From: a virus
IMG/VR virus record: IMGVR_UViG_3300021085_000033
Span: 1-59,892 of that record
Strand: one strand, 5' to 3'
DNA length: 59,892 bases
Numbering within the stretch: position 1 is the stretch's first letter; every line of letters starts with the position of its first letter. The translations under genes were made by a program, and so were the position numbers. Positions 54,328 to 59,892 of this stretch are shown piece by piece. The notes under the pieces were generated by a model. That model worked only from the letters and a program-made list of their open reading frames with translations. It was not told where the DNA came from and ran no database searches.

Positions 54328-54483
54328 CTATCTTTTCTTTTTACAATCCTTAGACTCATCACAGTAGCACACCTCATCACTACCACAGGCAAATGGCTCC
54401 GGTACATCAATCTCAAATCTAGTGATCCTGAGAAGTGTAGCACACATTGATACAATGCCTATTAGTATTATTGCTCCTGTCAT
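54328..54483 (-). CDS. Small membrane protein with cysteine-rich tail (51 aa)
   Basis: The frame MTGAIILIGIVSMCATLLRI is a membrane helix. It continues to a short domain with CGSDEVCYCDESKDCKKKR at its end. Two tandem TATCTTTG boxes lie directly upstream (the nearer only five bases from the ATG) and the two TTTAGGC palindromes lie beyond, so this is the first gene of a regulated leftward operon. Function unknown. Confidence 0.65.
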   Translation of the reverse strand: MTGAIILIGIVSMCATLLRITRFEIDVPEPFACGSDEVCYCDESKDCKKKR

Positions 54484-54488
54484 AGTTG

Positions 54489-54505
54489 CAAAGATAACAA
54501 AGATA
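54489..54505 (-). promoter_or_regulatory. Tandem promoter -7 boxes of the leftward small-gene operon
   Basis: Minus-strand TATCTTTG occurs twice (54489-54496 and 54498-54505). The nearer box is five bases from the start codon, so the transcript is leaderless. No matching -33 box is seen, which suggests activation or weak basal activity. Confidence 0.5.
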
Positions 54506-54543
54506 TCATAACTGTCTGACAGCTAGAATATAACGCTAATATT

Positions 54544-54593
54544 TTTAGGCTTACCTAAACCTGACGTATCTTATAGTTTTAGGCTTGCCTAAA
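54544..54593. promoter_or_regulatory. Two palindromic operators, TTTAGGC type
   Basis: TTTAGGCTTACCTAAA (54544-54559) and TTTAGGCTTGCCTAAA (54578-54593) are inverted repeats on the same pattern, 34 bases apart or about three helical turns. The second is a perfect palindrome. Tandem sites in phase are typical of repressor or activator dimers that contact each other. They lie upstream of the leftward operon. The winged-helix protein at 52573 is one candidate binder. Confidence 0.68.
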
Positions 54594-55372
54594 CCTCCTA
54601 CACCCCCAGTAAACACTGACTTGACAATCTCAAAAATAAGCTGTAACTTTACTGCATTAAGAGAAACGATATCAGTCGGTAGCATAATTCCTCAATCACT
54701 CACCGACACAACTTCTTATAGGGGTGGCGCTCAACGCCGCACCCACCCCTACAACCCCAAACAAACAGAACAACTCTGTATAAAGGTATACTATACTCTA
54801 TTTTTAGCTGTGCATCACCCCCCTCTCTACAGCAACCCAAAACTATTGATCCCACTGGGCGCTTTTAAAGCGCAAAACAATTATACACCATACCAACCTA
54901 CGCCCTCCCCGAAAACATACCCTTAAAACACATCTATACACCCCCTACAACATTCTATTACAGCCAAAAACATACCCCCTGTTTTTTGATATCAGTTCTA
55001 TATGGAGTGGGGATTATATATATGTTAGAATCATAAAAGTGTCGGCCCGAAGTCGATACGTTTACCCCACCCCCCTCTAACGTAATTGTCTTTCGCTCAG
55101 GGTTTTACCTTTTCTGACTTGGTGTCCTGCTTCAACCTGATGCTGATAACCGCTTGAGACTTAGCTCGTTGTGACCGAGTTATGAGTAAGGTAAGAACAA
55201 TCCACCCCCACCCATTTTACCACACATTTACCCACTCAGCTACACAGCGTTACTACCTGATTGAGCCCCTGAATAGCAAGGTTAGGTACACTGCCTGAAA
55301 AAAACTTTGCATTGCTGAGGCTAGTGTTGTCGGGGTTTTGTATGTCTCAGTGTTAATTACTTTGTTGATATG

Positions 55373-55404
55373 TTTGTGTATATGATAGCTGTATTGTACA
55401 TTTG
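55373..55404 (+). promoter_or_regulatory. Consensus promoter of the right-arm genes
   Basis: TTTG (55373-55376), a 20-base spacer and TACATTTG (55397-55404) match the Bacteroidota consensus exactly. It lies 28 bases before the first right-arm start codon and drives the rightward small genes. Confidence 0.82.
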
Positions 55405-55431
55405 CCCAATAACCATTTAAATATTTGCTTT

Positions 55432-55599
55432 ATGAAACTTTACAAAAAAGGAATTTCGCTGAACGTTGCTGAGTTGAATGCTTTACAGCACATCCTTGAT
55501 TCAGGAATCCACAATGCTCAATCTATGGGTTGCAATCCTGACCGATACAACACGCTCCAATCTATTAAGAGCCGTTTAGATAGCGCTAGAGCCAAGTAG
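55432..55599 (+). CDS. Hypothetical protein (55 aa), first right-arm gene
   Basis: The ATG at 55432 follows the repeated leader ending TTTGCTTTATG. The product MKLYKKGISLNVAELNALQH... is helical and basic. No family was recognised. Its stop codon TAG is immediately followed by, and overlaps, stem I of a hammerhead ribozyme (55598-55649). Confidence 0.65.
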   Translation: MKLYKKGISLNVAELNALQHILDSGIHNAQSMGCNPDRYNTLQSIKSRLDSARAK

Positions 55600-55649
55600 T
55601 TATACTGATGAGTCCTGATAGGACGAAACCCCTACGGGGGTCTATAACT
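55598..55649 (+). ncRNA. Type I hammerhead ribozyme
   Basis: All parts of the hammerhead are present in order: stem I AGTTATA (55598-55604), core CTGATGA (55605-55611), stem II GTCC-TGATA-GGAC (55612-55624), core GAAA (55625-55628), stem III CCCC-TACG-GGGG (55629-55640), the dinucleotide TC (55641-55642) and stem I return strand TATAACT (55643-55649). Every stem is perfectly paired. Self-cleavage is expected between 55642 and 55643. This would separate the upstream gene, whose stop codon overlaps stem I, from the leader of the next gene. The new 5' end would be a hydroxyl on the mRNA for 55674. Confidence 0.92.
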
Positions 55650-55673
55650 TTTACTAATTAAATTAAATGCTTT

Positions 55674-55940
55674 ATGACTAATCAATTTAAAAACCGCAAA
55701 GCCAACTTTGTTGAGGAAATCACTTACACCATCGTAATGGTTCACAAGGGTTCTTCTTACACTGAAAGACTCACCTTTAAGGAGTTGTTCTTCTACAATG
55801 AAGATAAAGAAGACCGCGAGTTAGTATTCGCACTTAATGAGGAATTTGAAGACATCCTTAAAATGAAGCAGGGTGACCAAATGCCTGTTAGGGTTGTTAG
55901 AGACCTAGATGAGTACGGCGTAATTGAAAGAACGCACTAA
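55674..55940 (+). CDS. Hypothetical protein (88 aa) downstream of the ribozyme
   Basis: The protein MTNQFKNRKANFVEEITYTI is mixed alpha-beta with charged stretches (FFYNEDKEDRELVFALNEEF). No family was recognised. Its leader ends TTAAATTAAATGCTTTATG, the repeated right-arm type, and its mRNA 5' end would be made by the hammerhead ribozyme. Confidence 0.7.
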   Translation: MTNQFKNRKANFVEEITYTIVMVHKGSSYTERLTFKELFFYNEDKEDRELVFALNEEFEDILKMKQGDQMPVRVVRDLDEYGVIERTH

Positions 55941-55953
55941 CACTAACCAATAG

Positions 55954-55997
55954 CATCACCAACACCTCGCACTGAAATAAATGCGGGGTTTTGGTGG
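55954..55997 (+). terminator. Intergenic hairpin, terminator-like
   Basis: CACCAA and TTGGTG with CCTCGCA and TGCGGGG form a long stem, with TTTT on the right side. It has the same plan as the hairpin at 56669-56709 and lies before the next GGTATAACTAATT leader. Confidence 0.55.
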
Positions 55998-56022
55998 TAT
56001 AACTAATTAAATTAAATGCTTT

Positions 56023-56361
56023 ATGAAATCAATCAATCCAACTGAAGACCTACTGAATCTGCACCGCCTAGATGCTACGATTCTAAATGCAAGTGATGAC
56101 TTCAAGAACGACCTAGGTCAGCGCATTACATTCTTTGAAGACCCTACCCTAGGTGAAGAGGGCTGTGTATGGGTATCGTTCCCTGAGCACAGCGTAGCGT
56201 TCCGTAGCGACTTCTATGAGACCGATGATATGACCTTAAAAACGGGCAGTGTATTCTCTTTCCTTGAGTGCGTTGAAAATAGATGGTCACCCGATGAAGA
56301 TATGGATTACGTACCTCGCCTAGTAGATGGTAAGATGCTCCTTAAATTTGATGCTGAATAG
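56023..56361 (+). CDS. Hypothetical protein (112 aa)
   Basis: This is an acidic protein, MKSINPTEDLLNLHRLDATI..., with GCVWVSFPEHSVAFRSDFYE and EDMDYVPRLVDGKMLLKFDAE segments. No family was recognised. It has the repeated right-arm leader. Its stop lies in the first arm of the structured element that follows. Confidence 0.7.
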   Translation: MKSINPTEDLLNLHRLDATILNASDDFKNDLGQRITFFEDPTLGEEGCVWVSFPEHSVAFRSDFYETDDMTLKTGSVFSFLECVENRWSPDEDMDYVPRLVDGKMLLKFDAE

Positions 56362-56436
56362 CAGTCCTCAGGGGGACTTTAAATAGGCTTTAGGCCCTGA
56401 GCGTGACCACTGCGGTGGTCGGTAGCAATAATGCTA
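56359..56436 (+). other. Structured intergenic RNA with three helices
   Basis: Helices are TAGCA (56359-56363) with TGCTA (56432-56436), CTCAGGG (56367-56373) with CCCTGAG (56395-56401), and GACCAC-TGCG-GTGGTC (56405-56420). A second TAGCA (56423-56427) could pair with the same TGCTA instead, giving two alternative folds. The stop codon of the preceding gene is the start of the first arm. No known family was recognised. Confidence 0.5.
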
Positions 56437-56455
56437 AACTTAAATTAAATGCTTT

Positions 56456-56653
56456 ATGAAAAATGCAAAATTCATCACACCCGCTAACCCTAATTTCATT
56501 ACTCCTGAAGAAGCTAAAGAGCTACTGACCAATGTACGTGCTGACCTTGATAAACTCATTGCACTAGGTGAGAGCTACTACCACTTCCAATCGGCTCAGG
56601 CTACCCACAAATACCTGAAGAAGGCTAAGAATGCCTTAAAAGGGGTCAGCTAG
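56456..56653 (+). CDS. Hypothetical protein (65 aa)
   Basis: This is a helical protein, MKNAKFITPANPNFITPEEA, then a coiled basic C-terminus. It starts after the leader TTAAATTAAATGCTTTATG. No family was recognised. Confidence 0.65.
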   Translation: MKNAKFITPANPNFITPEEAKELLTNVRADLDKLIALGESYYHFQSAQATHKYLKKAKNALKGVS

Positions 56654-56668
56654 TTAGCTGTAGACCTC

Positions 56669-56709
56669 AGCACCTCGCCTGACCTTGGAAACTTGGTCGG
56701 GCTTTGGTG
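56669..56709 (+). terminator. Intergenic hairpin, terminator-like
   Basis: GCCTGACC pairs with GGTCGGGC (8 bp), flanked by CACC and GGTG, followed by the GGTATAACTAATT leader of the next gene. Its flanks resemble the hairpin at 55954-55997. Confidence 0.55.
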
Positions 56710-56731
56710 GTATAACTAATTTAATAGTCTT

Positions 56732-56950
56732 ATGAAAAGAGCAACTAAACTAGAAAAGGGTCGTTACCAAATCACAATCAAAGGTCACGCTTACAGAATT
56801 GTAAAAGGCGGAAACCTGAATCCGGGATGGTGGATTTGGGAAGGTAAGAAATGTCAATGGAGAGGTAAAAGTAAATTCAATTGCGAGGTGTTTTTGAACT
56901 ACAGAAACCCGGCTTACCTTTCTTGTGATGTAAGGTATTTTCGCAACTAA
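56732..56950 (+). CDS. Hypothetical basic aromatic protein (72 aa)
   Basis: The protein MKRATKLEKGRYQITIKGHA... is beta-rich, with many Trp, Tyr and basic residues (GWWIWEGKKCQWRGKSKF) and two cysteines. It looks like a small beta-barrel that could bind nucleic acid or another protein. Family not recognised. Confidence 0.65.
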   Translation: MKRATKLEKGRYQITIKGHAYRIVKGGNLNPGWWIWEGKKCQWRGKSKFNCEVFLNYRNPAYLSCDVRYFRN

Positions 56951-56966
56951 TTTAATTTAACGCTTT

Positions 56967-57119
56967 ATGAAGCTACTTGCACTGATCTTAGGACTACTAT
57001 TATGTTCTTGCGCACCTCAATCTGAATTAAGATACATCATCATAGAGAATAACAATTCTATAGATGTTTGGACATCTGACCACTTCACCATAACGGATAC
57101 GGCTATCTACATAAAATAA
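56967..57119 (+). CDS. Small lipoprotein (50 aa)
   Basis: The frame encodes MKLLALILGLLLCSCAPQSE, a clear lipoprotein signal (LCSC, lipid Cys at about 15), then a short domain ending TDTAIYIK. Membrane-anchored small proteins made early by phages can block superinfection at the envelope. That is inference. It has the right-arm leader. Confidence 0.68.
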   Translation: MKLLALILGLLLCSCAPQSELRYIIIENNNSIDVWTSDHFTITDTAIYIK

Positions 57120-57127
57120 TAACCACT

Positions 57128-57172
57128 CCCGTTGGCGCCTTTAGGGTGCACCTAGGTCGTGCTAGGAACGGG
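57128..57172 (+). ncRNA. Compact three-way-junction RNA element
   Basis: CCCGTT (57128-57133) pairs with AACGGG (57167-57172). Inside, GCGCC (57135-57139) pairs with the strand ending at 57149, and CCTAG (57151-57155) pairs with CTAGG (57162-57166). Coaxial packing of three short helices in 45 bases suggests a fold. No known family was recognised. It follows the lipoprotein gene directly. Confidence 0.45.
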
Positions 57173-57213
57173 AACTAACAACCAAGTATTTATACTCAGC
57201 ACTTGATACTGAA

Positions 57214-57234
57214 TGTGAATAAAGTTGTGAATAA
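57214..57234. promoter_or_regulatory. Two tandem DnaA-box-like sites
   Basis: TGTGAATAA at 57214-57222 and 57226-57234 is the complement of TTATTCACA, which fits the general DnaA-box form TTATNCACA. The two are 12 bases apart on the same strand in a non-coding region. A third copy lies at 1897-1905 in the SSB promoter. They are likely targets of host DnaA or of the phage DnaA domain IV protein. Confidence 0.5.
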
Positions 57235-57319
57235 GTTAGGATTTACGGAATACGTTTCGTAGATTAGCTAAAGCAAATGAGGGTAAGACCTCAGCGTTCT
57301 TTGACATTATGGAAATTAA

Positions 57320-57442
57320 ATCAGTCTGATGAGGCTAGGTCATTCACCTAGCTGTACCTACGGGTACGACCCCTGAGATGGGGCGAAACCACGTGATACG
57401 GGAAGCGTATTGGCTACGGCACTTCGGTGCTTGGTCACTGAT
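57320..57442 (+). ncRNA. Hammerhead-like RNA with enlarged stems II and III
   Basis: Stem I ATCAGT (57320-57325) is fully complementary to ACTGAT (57437-57442). CTGATGA (57326-57332), GAAA (57385-57388) and a TC dinucleotide (57435-57436) sit where a type I hammerhead needs them. Between the two core strands there are three hairpins (GCTAGGT/ACCTAGC, GTACC-TACG-GGTAC, CCCC/GGGG) closed only by one G-C pair. The stem III region is also branched (CCA/TGG, ATACG/CGTAT, GCAC-TTCG-GTGC). Activity is uncertain because stem II is weakly closed. The return strand ACTGATA is the same as in the downstream GGTTACTGATA elements. Confidence 0.55.
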
Positions 57443-57458
57443 AACTAATTAAATGCTT

Positions 57459-57605
57459 ATGATACACGACAAAAGAATATGCGTGAAAACATCTAGCGCT
57501 GACCTACGTGAGATGACTAGCATACAGCTAGACAAGTTGTATGAAGACCTGAGAGTTTTGCAATTTCAGGCGCAGTACGAACTGCTATCAAGAGGGGGCG
57601 AATGA
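57459..57605 (+). CDS. Hypothetical protein (48 aa)
   Basis: The frame MIHDKRICVKTSSADLREMT..., ending QAQYELLSRGGE, starts after a TAATTAAATGCTTATG leader. It is helical and charged. Its stop codon lies in the loop of a hairpin (57592-57611). No family was recognised. Confidence 0.6.
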   Translation: MIHDKRICVKTSSADLREMTSIQLDKLYEDLRVLQFQAQYELLSRGGE

Positions 57606-57622
57606 CCCCTCGGTTACTGATA
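57592..57622 (+). repeat. Stop-codon hairpin plus GGTTACTGATA, copy 1
   Basis: GAGGGG (57592-57597) and CCCCTC (57606-57611) form a hairpin whose loop contains the stop codon TGA. GGTTACTGATA (57612-57622) follows without a gap and leads into the start of the next gene at 57641. Confidence 0.6.
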
Positions 57623-57640
57623 ACTTAAATTAATTGCTTT

Positions 57641-58003
57641 ATGAACAAACAAGATTTTGCTCAGCTGTTGGAGATGCACGATTGGTACTACGAACGTAGC
57701 GAAGACCCAAAGGTCTACAAAAGAGGTAGTGAACAGCGTAAAATGATCTTCAAAGCAAAAGCACAGCTAGGTGAGGATGGAGAATACCTTTACCTGAAGT
57801 ATGCTAAGCGCTACGAAGAGAATACCAATAGACCGATAGGCGCTCCAAGGAAAGAGCGCGTGTTTAAGGACATTATGTGTAAGTCTAATGGTAAGCTAGG
57901 CGTACTGATAGACAAGAGCCCAAACGGGTTTCTAGAGATTAAGTTCAAGGATGAGTACCGAACCCAATATCTACACCCTGACAAAGTGTTTATGCTAGAC
58001 TAG
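57641..58003 (+). CDS. Hypothetical protein (120 aa)
   Basis: This is a mixed alpha-beta protein, MNKQDFAQLLEMHDWYYERS, with KMIFKAKAQLGEDGEYLYLK and LGVLIDKSPNGFLEIKFKDE. The N-terminal part may be an alpha-helical binding domain. No family was recognised. The stop codon lies in a hairpin loop. Confidence 0.7.
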   Translation: MNKQDFAQLLEMHDWYYERSEDPKVYKRGSEQRKMIFKAKAQLGEDGEYLYLKYAKRYEENTNRPIGAPRKERVFKDIMCKSNGKLGVLIDKSPNGFLEIKFKDEYRTQYLHPDKVFMLD

Positions 58004-58021
58004 GTCTAGCGGTTACTGATA
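57994..58021 (+). repeat. Stop-codon hairpin plus GGTTACTGATA, copy 2
   Basis: GCTAGA (57994-57999) and TCTAGC (58005-58010) form a hairpin with the stop TAG in its five-base loop. GGTTACTGATA (58011-58021) follows directly. Confidence 0.6.
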
Positions 58022-58038
58022 ACTTAAATTAATGCTTT

Positions 58039-58245
58039 ATGATAAGTAGAATGGAAATCCTGAAGAACGGCTACGTAATGATAGCTGAGAAACTAGACAG
58101 CGAAGATTTACACGGCGCTATGGCTATGGCTAAGGGACTAGGACTTATAGACCTAGTCAATGAGATAGGCGAACTTATGTACTGCGCTGATGATGAGTAC
58201 GAGCCATTTAGAAAAGGTTTAATCAAACACCTGATAGAGGAATGA
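58039..58245 (+). CDS. Hypothetical acidic protein (68 aa)
   Basis: The protein MISRMEILKNGYVMIAEKLD... is helical and acidic. An ATG at codon 5 is an alternative start. It overlaps the next gene by four bases (ATGA) without an intergenic element. Function unknown. Confidence 0.65.
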   Translation: MISRMEILKNGYVMIAEKLDSEDLHGAMAMAKGLGLIDLVNEIGELMYCADDEYEPFRKGLIKHLIEE

Positions 58246-58388
58246 GAAAATACACGATTGAAAACTATTACGGCGGTGAAAGAGATGATGAACTGCTGTA
58301 CGCGGACAGCTACAAAGAGGCTAGAAAACTACAAGGTGGTGAGTTCTCTTTGATTATTAATAACGTTACTAAAGTTGTAAGAGAATGA
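58242..58388 (+). CDS. Hypothetical protein (48 aa)
   Basis: The frame MRKYTIENYYGGERDDELLY..., ending NNVTKVVRE, is mixed alpha-beta. ATGA overlaps on both sides couple it to its neighbours. No family was recognised. Confidence 0.6.
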   Translation: MRKYTIENYYGGERDDELLYADSYKEARKLQGGEFSLIINNVTKVVRE

Positions 58389-58654
58389 CAAGTAGAGAAA
58401 AGATGTTGGAAATACTCGGAAAGTACTTTCCAATCACCGGAACAACTGAAGACTTTGATGGCTCCGAGGGAGGCATATGGATTTGTGGTGAGTGTGACTA
58501 CACTACCCCCAAAGGTATTCCTTACTTTAACTATTACGCCCACAGCAAGTCTTACGAATTCGGTGTGCTGAATAGCTTAACAAAGATTACCGATAAGCAC
58601 GGGTGGGGATTCCAATGGTATGACCCCGGAACGATAATGGTGTACCCTGATTAG
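58385..58654 (+). CDS. Hypothetical protein (89 aa)
   Basis: The protein MTSREKMLEILGKYFPITGT has a segment GSEGGIWICGECDYTTPKGI with a CxxC pair and an aromatic-rich C-terminus (HGWGFQWYDPGTIMVYPD). The CxxC may bind metal. No family was recognised. Its stop lies in a hairpin. Confidence 0.68.
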   Translation: MTSREKMLEILGKYFPITGTTEDFDGSEGGIWICGECDYTTPKGIPYFNYYAHSKSYEFGVLNSLTKITDKHGWGFQWYDPGTIMVYPD

Positions 58655-58672
58655 GGTCACCGGTTACTGATA
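58640..58672 (+). repeat. Stop-codon hairpin plus GGTTACTGATA, copy 3
   Basis: GTG-ACCCT and AGGGT-CAC (58640-58660, one-base bulge) enclose the stop codon TAG. One C separates the hairpin from GGTTACTGATA (58662-58672). Confidence 0.6.
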
Positions 58673-58689
58673 TCTTAAAACACTTTATT

Positions 58690-58962
58690 ATGCCTAAGAA
58701 ACATAGAAACCTTAACGGAGACCTATGCTACACGTTTGCGTGGGAGCAGGGTGGTGGTAATCACGTATATGCCTACAGCAAGAAAGCCGCAATTAGATTA
58801 GCCAAGAAAGTTGGCGCTGGGACACACGATAGACACGGGAAAAAATACAAAAAGACATATCCTCTTTCAGTGTTGACCCCTCAAGAAGAATCATTCCGCT
58901 CAGTATATCTAGAAGAATTGATGGAGTTTGATCGGAACCTGTACCTAGCGTACAGCCTATAA
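58690..58962 (+). CDS. Hypothetical basic protein (90 aa)
   Basis: The protein MPKKHRNLNGDLCYTFAWEQ is basic in its first 60 residues, with AYSKKAAIRLAKKVGAG, then acidic (EELMEFDRNLYLAYSL). It may bind nucleic acid. No family was recognised. Confidence 0.65.
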   Translation: MPKKHRNLNGDLCYTFAWEQGGGNHVYAYSKKAAIRLAKKVGAGTHDRHGKKYKKTYPLSVLTPQEESFRSVYLEELMEFDRNLYLAYSL

Positions 58963-58970
58963 TATAAAGT

Positions 58971-59127
58971 CGGAGCATAAGCAGTCCCGGAGGTCTTCGG
59001 GATAGAAGAGTATTCTGCCAATTCAATTCAATTTAAGGTCAAGGTGTGCTCCTAGCCCTAGCGGGTAGTAACATACACCAAAGATTACTAAAGACTGACA
59101 GCAAGGAAAGACTTGCGGTTACTGATA
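58971..59127 (+). other. Structured intergenic RNA ending in GGTTACTGATA, copy 4
   Basis: GGAGCA near 58972 can pair with TGCTCC near 59047. Inside are TCCCG/CGGGA and, after it, CCC-TAGC-GGG. The last hairpin is GCAAG (59101-59105) with CTTGC (59112-59116), directly followed by GGTTACTGATA (59117-59127). Here the hairpin is not at a stop codon, unlike copies 1-3. It may be a small RNA between two genes. Confidence 0.5.
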
Positions 59128-59158
59128 TTTTTAATTAACTTGGCTTAAAACATTTAAT

Positions 59159-59356
59159 ATGTATGAGATTAAAAACCAATTCAGCTCAGGAGAGCTAAAA
59201 GCTATATCGATATGCATTAGCTTTATGATTGATGACGTTAACGAAGAGCTAGAGAGCTACGAGAACGCAAGTATGACTGAGGCAGCACAAACCTCTAGAG
59301 AGGTCTTGAGTGGTCTATATGAAGTGCTTAACAAGATTAGAAATTTAACCCTATAA
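59159..59356 (+). CDS. Hypothetical helical protein (65 aa)
   Basis: The protein MYEIKNQFSSGELKAISICI continues as acidic helices. An antitoxin-like or inhibitor-like small protein is possible, but no motif shows this. Confidence 0.65.
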   Translation: MYEIKNQFSSGELKAISICISFMIDDVNEELESYENASMTEAAQTSREVLSGLYEVLNKIRNLTL

Positions 59357-59362
59357 TTTATT

Positions 59363-59530
59363 ATGATACTACAAGACTTGAAAGATGATATGTACTCGCT
59401 AGTAGAACGTGTACGTGTAAGAGCTGAACTGGCTGACCGAACACTAGATGCCCACGATATGGCTCGTATAGAAGCCCTGATGGGGCAGATAGAAGTATTT
59501 ACTAAGCAACACAGCAGTAATTGTGAATAG
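59363..59530 (+). CDS. Hypothetical helical protein (55 aa)
   Basis: The frame MILQDLKDDMYSLVERVRVR..., ending FTKQHSSNCE, is helical and amphipathic. It starts after TATAATTTATTATG. No family was recognised. Confidence 0.6.
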   Translation: MILQDLKDDMYSLVERVRVRAELADRTLDAHDMARIEALMGQIEVFTKQHSSNCE

Positions 59531-59544
59531 TACGATACAACTTG

Positions 59545-59576
59545 CGCTAAAGGGGTTTTTAAAAACCTTTTTAGCG
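59545..59576. terminator. 32-bp palindromic terminator
   Basis: CGCTAAA-GG-GGTTTTT and AAAAACC-TT-TTTAGCG form a symmetric stem with two G-U pairs in either direction. The symmetrical form terminates on both strands. It ends the right-arm transcripts. Confidence 0.72.
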
Positions 59577-59585
59577 ATAGGTTCT

Positions 59586-59657
59586 ATGAAGATGTTAGCA
59601 CACGTATTAGGAATACTGATAATATATTTCTTTAGCTATGTAGATAAATGGATTTAA
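59586..59657 (+). CDS. Tiny membrane peptide (23 aa)
   Basis: The frame encodes MKMLAHVLGILIIYFFSYVD plus KWI, one transmembrane helix. It starts just after the palindromic terminator. Such tiny hydrophobic frames can be toxins or incidental. The evidence is only the hydrophobicity and good spacing. Confidence 0.35.
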   Translation: MKMLAHVLGILIIYFFSYVDKWI

Positions 59658-59661
59658 TCCT

Positions 59662-59669
59662 TATATTTG
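59662..59669 (+). promoter_or_regulatory. Promoter -7 box of the terminal RNA
   Basis: TATATTTG fits TAnnTTTG. The presumed RNA starts near 59676 and runs through the terminal repeat. The -33 region is weak. Confidence 0.45.
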
Positions 59670-59675
59670 CATCAA

Positions 59676-59777
59676 CAAACAATCCTCTCCGCAATTGTGA
59701 TTGTTTTAGAAGTATACATTTAAGACCCTATTGGGAGTAACCGAGTGCGGAGCGGTGAAACTAGTGGGGTCTTTTTT
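59676..59777 (+). ncRNA. Candidate small RNA before the terminal repeat
   Basis: About 100 bases between a TATATTTG box and a T-run contain ACAATC/GATTGT, CTCCGCA with TGCGGAG, and AGACCC (59723-59728) with GGGTCT (59767-59772), followed by TTTTT. This is the layout of a structured short RNA with its own terminator. The terminal repeat starts inside the terminator stem. No known family was recognised. Confidence 0.42.
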
Positions 59778-59892
59778 GTTGCTGAGCATTGAGGCGCAAC
59801 ACTAAACAAAGCCCTTGCGTTTGGAAGAGATGGTTACTGATGATAGCTTCGCCAATGATCCGGATGAATAGTACACACCGGATAGAGACCTA
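59767..59892. repeat. Terminal direct repeat, right copy (126 bp)
   Basis: Identical to bases 6-131. See the left copy. It begins within the right arm of the small-RNA terminator and contains a GGTTACTGAT motif (59832) like the right-arm elements. Confidence 0.9.

Follow-up and report, generated by a model that had tools for sequence, protein, structure and literature searches.

Type I hammerhead ribozymes are known from intergenic positions of phages and prophages (Rfam RF00163), where they cluster around single genes and have been proposed to process long transcripts, and cleavage of clustered examples has been shown (Perreault et al. 2011, PMC3088659). In the haloviruses HF1/HF2, a hammerhead called HHphage is found 13 nt upstream of the start codon of an early gene, and a mapped mRNA 5' end falls within three nucleotides of the hammerhead cut (PMC3088659, PMC7230728). 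Hammerhead variants are also known, including forms with a one-base-pair stem II (PMC3088659), permuted forms (PMC10085705), and the RAGATH-1 hammerhead (RF03152). It was suggested earlier, on statistical grounds, that any ribozyme class may fill such places, and the function of the many hammerheads and other self-cleaving ribozymes close to phage genes is still described as unknown (PMC10085705).

The hammerhead analyzed here was found in an uncultivated phage, IMG/VR virus record IMGVR_UViG_3300021085_000033, all 59,892 bases of which (positions 1-59,892) are referred to as the window. It agrees with the phage hammerheads of RF00163 in its core, its three helices, its type I topology, and its intergenic position, and like those of PMC3088659 it belongs to a cluster around single genes. 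It differs from them in scoring under the Rfam gathering score, in its origin in a phage with a probable Bacteroidota host, and in sharing an arm of small genes with a Pistol ribozyme and a large hammerhead-like element. Like HHphage it lies shortly 5' of a phage gene start, but HHphage belongs to an archaeal virus and has a variant core with an insertion, whereas the core in the window is canonical. Because intergenic phage hammerheads, their clusters, and transcript processing were all described in 2011 (PMC3088659), both this type of hammerhead and its proposed use were already known. Judged by sequence, the less ordinary part of the arm is the large element, for now named hammerhead-like.

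Genome setting and probable host

The terminase and portal proteins of the window matched tailed-phage PHROGs families. Every one of the closest annotated terminases was less than 60% identical, and the majority were from Flavobacterium and Cellulophaga phages. A pattern search for flavobacterial promoter motifs, in which the sigma-A -7 box is TAnnTTTG (PMC9723704), gave 6 matches in the window compared with 0.98 expected. The nearest terminases and the promoter enrichment together make a host in the Bacteroidota likely. Both ends of the window were joined within a single related contig (L002), which makes the genome either circular or circularly permuted.

From about 55.4 kb the small-gene arm extends to the right, with a predicted Bacteroidota-type promoter, TTTG-N20-TACATTTG, located 5' of its first gene (55373-55404, + strand). 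When annotated phages were searched by blastn with the arm (54400-59892), there were zero matches, and IMG/VR was therefore used as the source of relatives. Five arm proteins had no match in a PHROGs search.

Structure and position of the hammerhead

The hammerhead occupies positions 55599-55648 on the + strand (55598-55649 with the outermost A-U pair) and has the layout GTTATA-CTGATGA-GTCCTGATAGGAC-GAA-ACCCCTACGGGGGT-C^TATAAC, in which all of the invariant hammerhead nucleotides and a GUC site are found. Stem I has 6 bp (55599-55604/55643-55648), or 7 with the A55598-T55649 pair. The CUGAUGA core strand (55605-55611) is followed by stem II (55612-55624), with 5 bp (GTCCT/AGGAC) and a GAU triloop, by the GAA core strand (55625-55627), and by stem III (55628-55641), with 5 bp (ACCCC/GGGGT) around a TACG loop. 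C3, U4, G5, A6, N7, G8, and A9 are in place in the first core strand and G12, A13, and A14 in the second; the A15.1-U16.1 pair, counted within stem III, is A55628-U55641, and H17, which must not be G, is C55642 (C17). The predicted cleavage site, GUC^U, is thus between 55642 and 55643, as expected from the hammerhead mechanism.

This reading agrees with a first-pass annotation made from the sequence alone, which had described a canonical hammerhead with three perfect stems, both core strands, and a cleavage site at 55598-55649. The annotation had put the cut at 55642/55643, a prediction that fits the place of H17 relative to the core, and had stem I beginning on the stop codon of the upstream gene. 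In the open reading frame list, that small gene (54 aa from ATG; 55435-55599, +) ends with TAG at 55597-55599, so that the stop abuts stem I, which begins at 55599. The downstream gene (55674-55940, +) encodes 88 aa and had no PHROGs match. With the upstream stop at 55597-55599 and the next open reading frame at 55674, the cut would leave a leader of 31 nt (55643-55673, +), predicted to be unstructured (minimum free energy (MFE) 0). No Shine-Dalgarno sequence was found in this leader, the 3' part of which was repeated 5' of other arm genes (blastn). It follows from this anatomy that the predicted cut would separate two genes and provide the downstream mRNA with a short 5'-hydroxyl leader.

In the MFE structure, the RNA alone adopts the three-way junction with an open stem I. 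Predicted pairing probability within a 326-nt context was about 0.24 for the A/U-rich stem I, whereas the stem II and stem III pairs had values of 0.76-0.94. The MFE structure has a UUU bulge in the extension of stem I, and no tertiary contact between stems I and II could be assigned, for which reason cleavage could be slow.

Model scores and covariation

The Rfam hammerhead search proposed in the first-pass annotation gave a divided result: RF00163 matched the hammerhead (E 2.6e-4 in a search of 5.5 kb), but the score of 29.7 bits is under the gathering score of 34, which is a curated threshold rather than a biochemical definition. This cut-off is strict for short phage hammerheads: complete hammerheads are present at the majority of 15 loci, and just one of the 15 passed. 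A covariance model from 15 sequences of other phages, with the window and its close relatives left out, scored the hammerhead at 66.8 bits (E about 7e-21), compared with 12.3 bits for the next-best place in the window. This model was built on an ungapped 50-nt alignment, which replaced a MAFFT alignment that misplaced stem III. The score was 69.5 bits with a model of 40 phage sequences that included the window sequence itself. With a strict type I finder, the hammerhead was the sole site in the genome, and none were found in 20 dinucleotide shuffles.

Alignment of the 40 phage sequences showed 95.5% of cells paired, compared with 65.7% after shuffling. The covariation score was 0.73, compared with 0.15 for shuffled and at most 0.13 for slid alignments; all three stems covaried, and 13 of the 16 pairs had changes on both sides. 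Conservation of the core was far above that of the stems. Loss of the core bases in related phages, which according to the first-pass annotation would refute it, was not seen. The 40-sequence set is biased, since the finder used to collect it demands pairing, and a test with sites picked by the core and stem II alone was added for that reason: 86 of 105 distinct sites also completed stems I and III, compared with 1.8% when the flanks were shuffled. Together with the presence of the same ribozyme at similar junctions in related phages, the complete core, the covariation, and the leave-out model give good support to a type I hammerhead at this gene junction.

Position of hammerheads across phage contigs

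A set of 114 type I hammerheads in the IMG/VR contigs fetched was examined for position relative to genes. A stop and a start codon were present on the two sides of 70% of them, compared with 15% of random positions, and 103 of the 114 had an ATG-initiated open reading frame no more than 60 nt from the cut (35% at random; median 25 nt), although this random-position control is only approximate because the contigs had been chosen for the hammerheads they carry and the genes of phages lie close together. Measured from the base at which stem I begins, a stop codon ended at -10 to +8 in 82 of 109 hammerheads, compared with approximately 11% at random, and the distribution of stop-codon ends peaked directly before stem I. 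The longest series was found in a 51-kb phage contig (L003/G002), in which nine hammerheads follow one another on a single strand over about 4.3 kb (L215 849-5119, +). Most of these lie directly between two open reading frames, and the preceding gene usually ends with a TAA that falls inside stem I or at its start. Other contigs contained four to seven hammerheads each.

Other elements at the junctions of the arm

Two further putative self-cleaving elements in the same arm had been overlooked in the first-pass annotation. The first is a Pistol ribozyme between two small genes (56363-56427, +), which scored 54.9 bits with Rfam RF02679 (gathering score 34.5) and spans model positions 1-68, a full-length match. 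Its predicted cut, 56422/56423, is 33 nt before the ATG at 56456. Compared by model score alone, it fits the whole of the Pistol family model (RF02679; PMC4604425), and it differs from that description in being one among several junction modules in a single arm. Pistol was also found in L023 and L189, and these relatives scored 71.7 and 70.6 bits.

Two hairpins are located at other junctions of the arm: hairpin A (55957-55996, +), at the junction next to the hammerhead and conserved in L002, L023, and L029, and hairpin B (56671-56709, +), at a further junction and conserved in L002 and L023. Both have a ribozyme-like placement directly 5' of the repeated leader, and they may be terminator-like, a processing site, or something else.

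A large hammerhead-like element

The second overlooked element, 125 nt long (57319-57443, +), recurs in conserved form in 7 further viral contigs (L002, L006/L033, L029, L189, L207, L208, and L209). It contains a stem I (57320-57325/57437-57442), CUGAUGA (57326-57332), GAAA, a GGU-H site, and a branched stem III, while a G-C pair and three hairpins replace stem II. The predicted cut (57436/57437) is 22 nt before the ATG at 57459. The core, the A15.1-U16.1 pair, H17, and stem I were present in all 7 distinct sequences, and all of these were invariant except at H17 (C or U) and at one G-U pair in stem I. Compensatory changes were found in the hairpins of this element labeled 1, 2, and A, and its hairpin 3 was invariant; among the loops, CCCC-UGAGAU-GGGG was invariant and a GRRAG loop was conserved. 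Pairs of the second hairpin were counted by hand, as MAFFT shifts that hairpin. Because stems I and III hardly vary, their covariation neither supports nor contradicts the assignment. In place of a continuous stem II there is at most one G-C pair and then the three hairpins, which is why the element is termed hammerhead-like rather than a standard hammerhead.

A model built from the large elements alone was searched against 949 kb, and the next matches after the element itself were the small hammerheads of the window, L002, L033, and L189, which scored about 14-15 bits (E 0.2-0.5), weak matches yet in exactly the right places. Rfam gave no match to the large element up to E 10, and blastn found none among annotated phages. 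Of nine viral matches to the large-element pattern, two (L204 and L206) were rejected as chance matches by their sequence. The pattern occurred at 63 sites in 84,980 bacterial and archaeal species genomes, where about 58 were estimated by chance; two of the 63 had plausible stems I and III and the conserved third hairpin was missing throughout, so these genomes yielded no relative of the large element.

Like the published hammerhead variants, the large element keeps the core, and it may close stem II by a single G-C pair, but it is unlike them in the three-hairpin domain that replaces stem II and in its branched stem III. With no Rfam match up to E 10 and no account of it in the publications consulted, it is apparently undescribed. 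Perhaps the three-hairpin domain stabilizes the fold or senses a ligand or protein. If this is a true hammerhead architecture, it would widen the range of forms that hammerheads take. Upstream of the element, about 180 nt of non-coding sequence (57120-57300, +) are 92-93% identical in L002 and L029, and the adjoining genes differ.

Exchange of elements among relatives

The small hammerhead was identical in L002 and nearly identical in L023, L189, L153, and L033, and the neighboring genes differed. At this early-arm junction both flanking genes were exchanged among the window, L002, L023, L189, and L153: the upstream 54-aa gene has a homolog in L189, and unrelated genes are found instead in L002, L023, and L153. 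Around one gene family (F0), the elements themselves varied. On its 5' side were Pistol (window and L023), hairpin A (L029), the large element (L033), or none of these (L002), and on its 3' side were hairpin B (window, L002, and L023) or a second hammerhead form (L029, 1228-1281). The hammerhead, Pistol, the second hammerhead form, and the large element were all present in a single arm in L189. A tentative interpretation, which is less likely than not, is that the arm is an operon punctuated by interchangeable self-cleaving modules and that the large element represents a novel hammerhead architecture with a three-hairpin domain in the place of stem II.

Proposed role in transcript processing

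The element at 55599-55648 is probably a functional type I hammerhead at which the polycistronic transcript of the small-gene arm is cut in cis. From its observed sequence, structural conservation, position, and orientation we infer cleavage, the ends of the products, and any effect on mRNA life or translation, as follows. RNA polymerase would start near the promoter at 55373-55404 and transcribe the arm, and once the hammerhead had been transcribed the RNA would fold and cut itself after C55642. The upstream mRNA would retain the ribozyme body, giving it a 3' end that is protected by a hairpin and carries a 2',3'-cyclic phosphate, and the downstream mRNA would begin with the 31-nt unstructured leader and a 5'-hydroxyl, the ends that hammerhead and Pistol chemistry predicts (PMC4604425). 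Pistol and the large hammerhead-like element would give the same outcome at other junctions of the arm. For each of the three modules, the body of the ribozyme would remain upstream and a leader of 22-33 nt would go to the downstream mRNA. The leaders were predicted to be unstructured for both hammerhead forms and to contain a small hairpin for Pistol; none has a Shine-Dalgarno sequence, which is usual in the Bacteroidota (PMC6847099).

Unmasking of the start codon was considered as a role and is weakly supported, with the predicted accessibility of the start region nearly unchanged by cleavage of the small hammerhead (0.63 before and 0.68 after). Effects on mRNA ends and stability are therefore favored over a role of this kind. 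Stem I and part of the core would lie beneath a ribosome that has reached the stop codon at 55597-55599, and cleavage may thus have to compete with translation.

Which of the two ends matters most bears on a second explanation, that an active ribozyme chiefly makes the 3' end of the upstream message, with the hairpin and cyclic phosphate substituting for a terminator and the fate of the downstream RNA being secondary. This role would suit the hammerhead, Pistol, and the large element, all of which would leave the ribozyme body with the upstream product. It would also suit the stop codons adjoining or overlapping stem I, as seen in the majority of phage hammerheads, and the terminator-like hairpins A and B at equivalent junctions. 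However, the next ATG follows at a short distance that varies little (median 25 nt), which suggests selection on the downstream end too, and in L207, L208, and L209 the large element precedes the first gene of the arm, where the nearby upstream open reading frames are short and doubtful. That the 3' end is the main purpose is rather unlikely.

The exchange of flanking genes around near-identical junction elements, and the leader repeat found before many genes, might instead indicate that the conserved junctions are homologous linkers at the DNA level, by which small genes are exchanged through recombination, and that ribozyme activity is incidental. Pure DNA homology would not be expected to produce compensatory substitutions, which keep the pairing while the sequence changes, or a core so much better conserved than the stems, and this explanation is improbable. 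It is very improbable that pairs of ribozymes excise segments, such as 55643-56422 from the hammerhead to Pistol, that are then ligated to circular RNAs. Such segments would end in a 5'-hydroxyl and a 2',3'-cyclic phosphate, on which RtcB-type ligases act. But clustered phage hammerheads gave no circular or spliced products (Perreault et al., PMC3088659), and the modules that flank genes vary among phages. That the site is a chance look-alike or an inactive relic, as its score under the Rfam cut-off might suggest, is the least probable explanation of all, given the empty shuffled genomes, the leave-out E-value, and a sequence that is the same or nearly so in five relatives with different neighbors.

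The preferred role as a cut point within the transcript is in keeping with the wider comparison. The position between stop and start codons, the exchange of ribozyme classes around a gene family, and the series of up to nine successive hammerheads suggest that phage transcripts are cut gene by gene.

Candidate elements in isolate phages

The comparative data also name isolate phages that carry such predicted elements. Flavobacterium phage elemoF, for which Flavobacterium sp. BAL314 is the laboratory host strain, has a probable hammerhead with a weak stem II (MT497071 16045-16102, - strand; L214 2046-2103), which scored 31.7 bits and is 22 nt before a gene start; an annotated short open reading frame overlaps it on the opposite strand. 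Agrobacterium phage OLIVR1 has an unannotated hammerhead (MT234338 3960-4009; L212 3960-4009, +), which scored 58.1 bits and is located 20 nt upstream of gp13.
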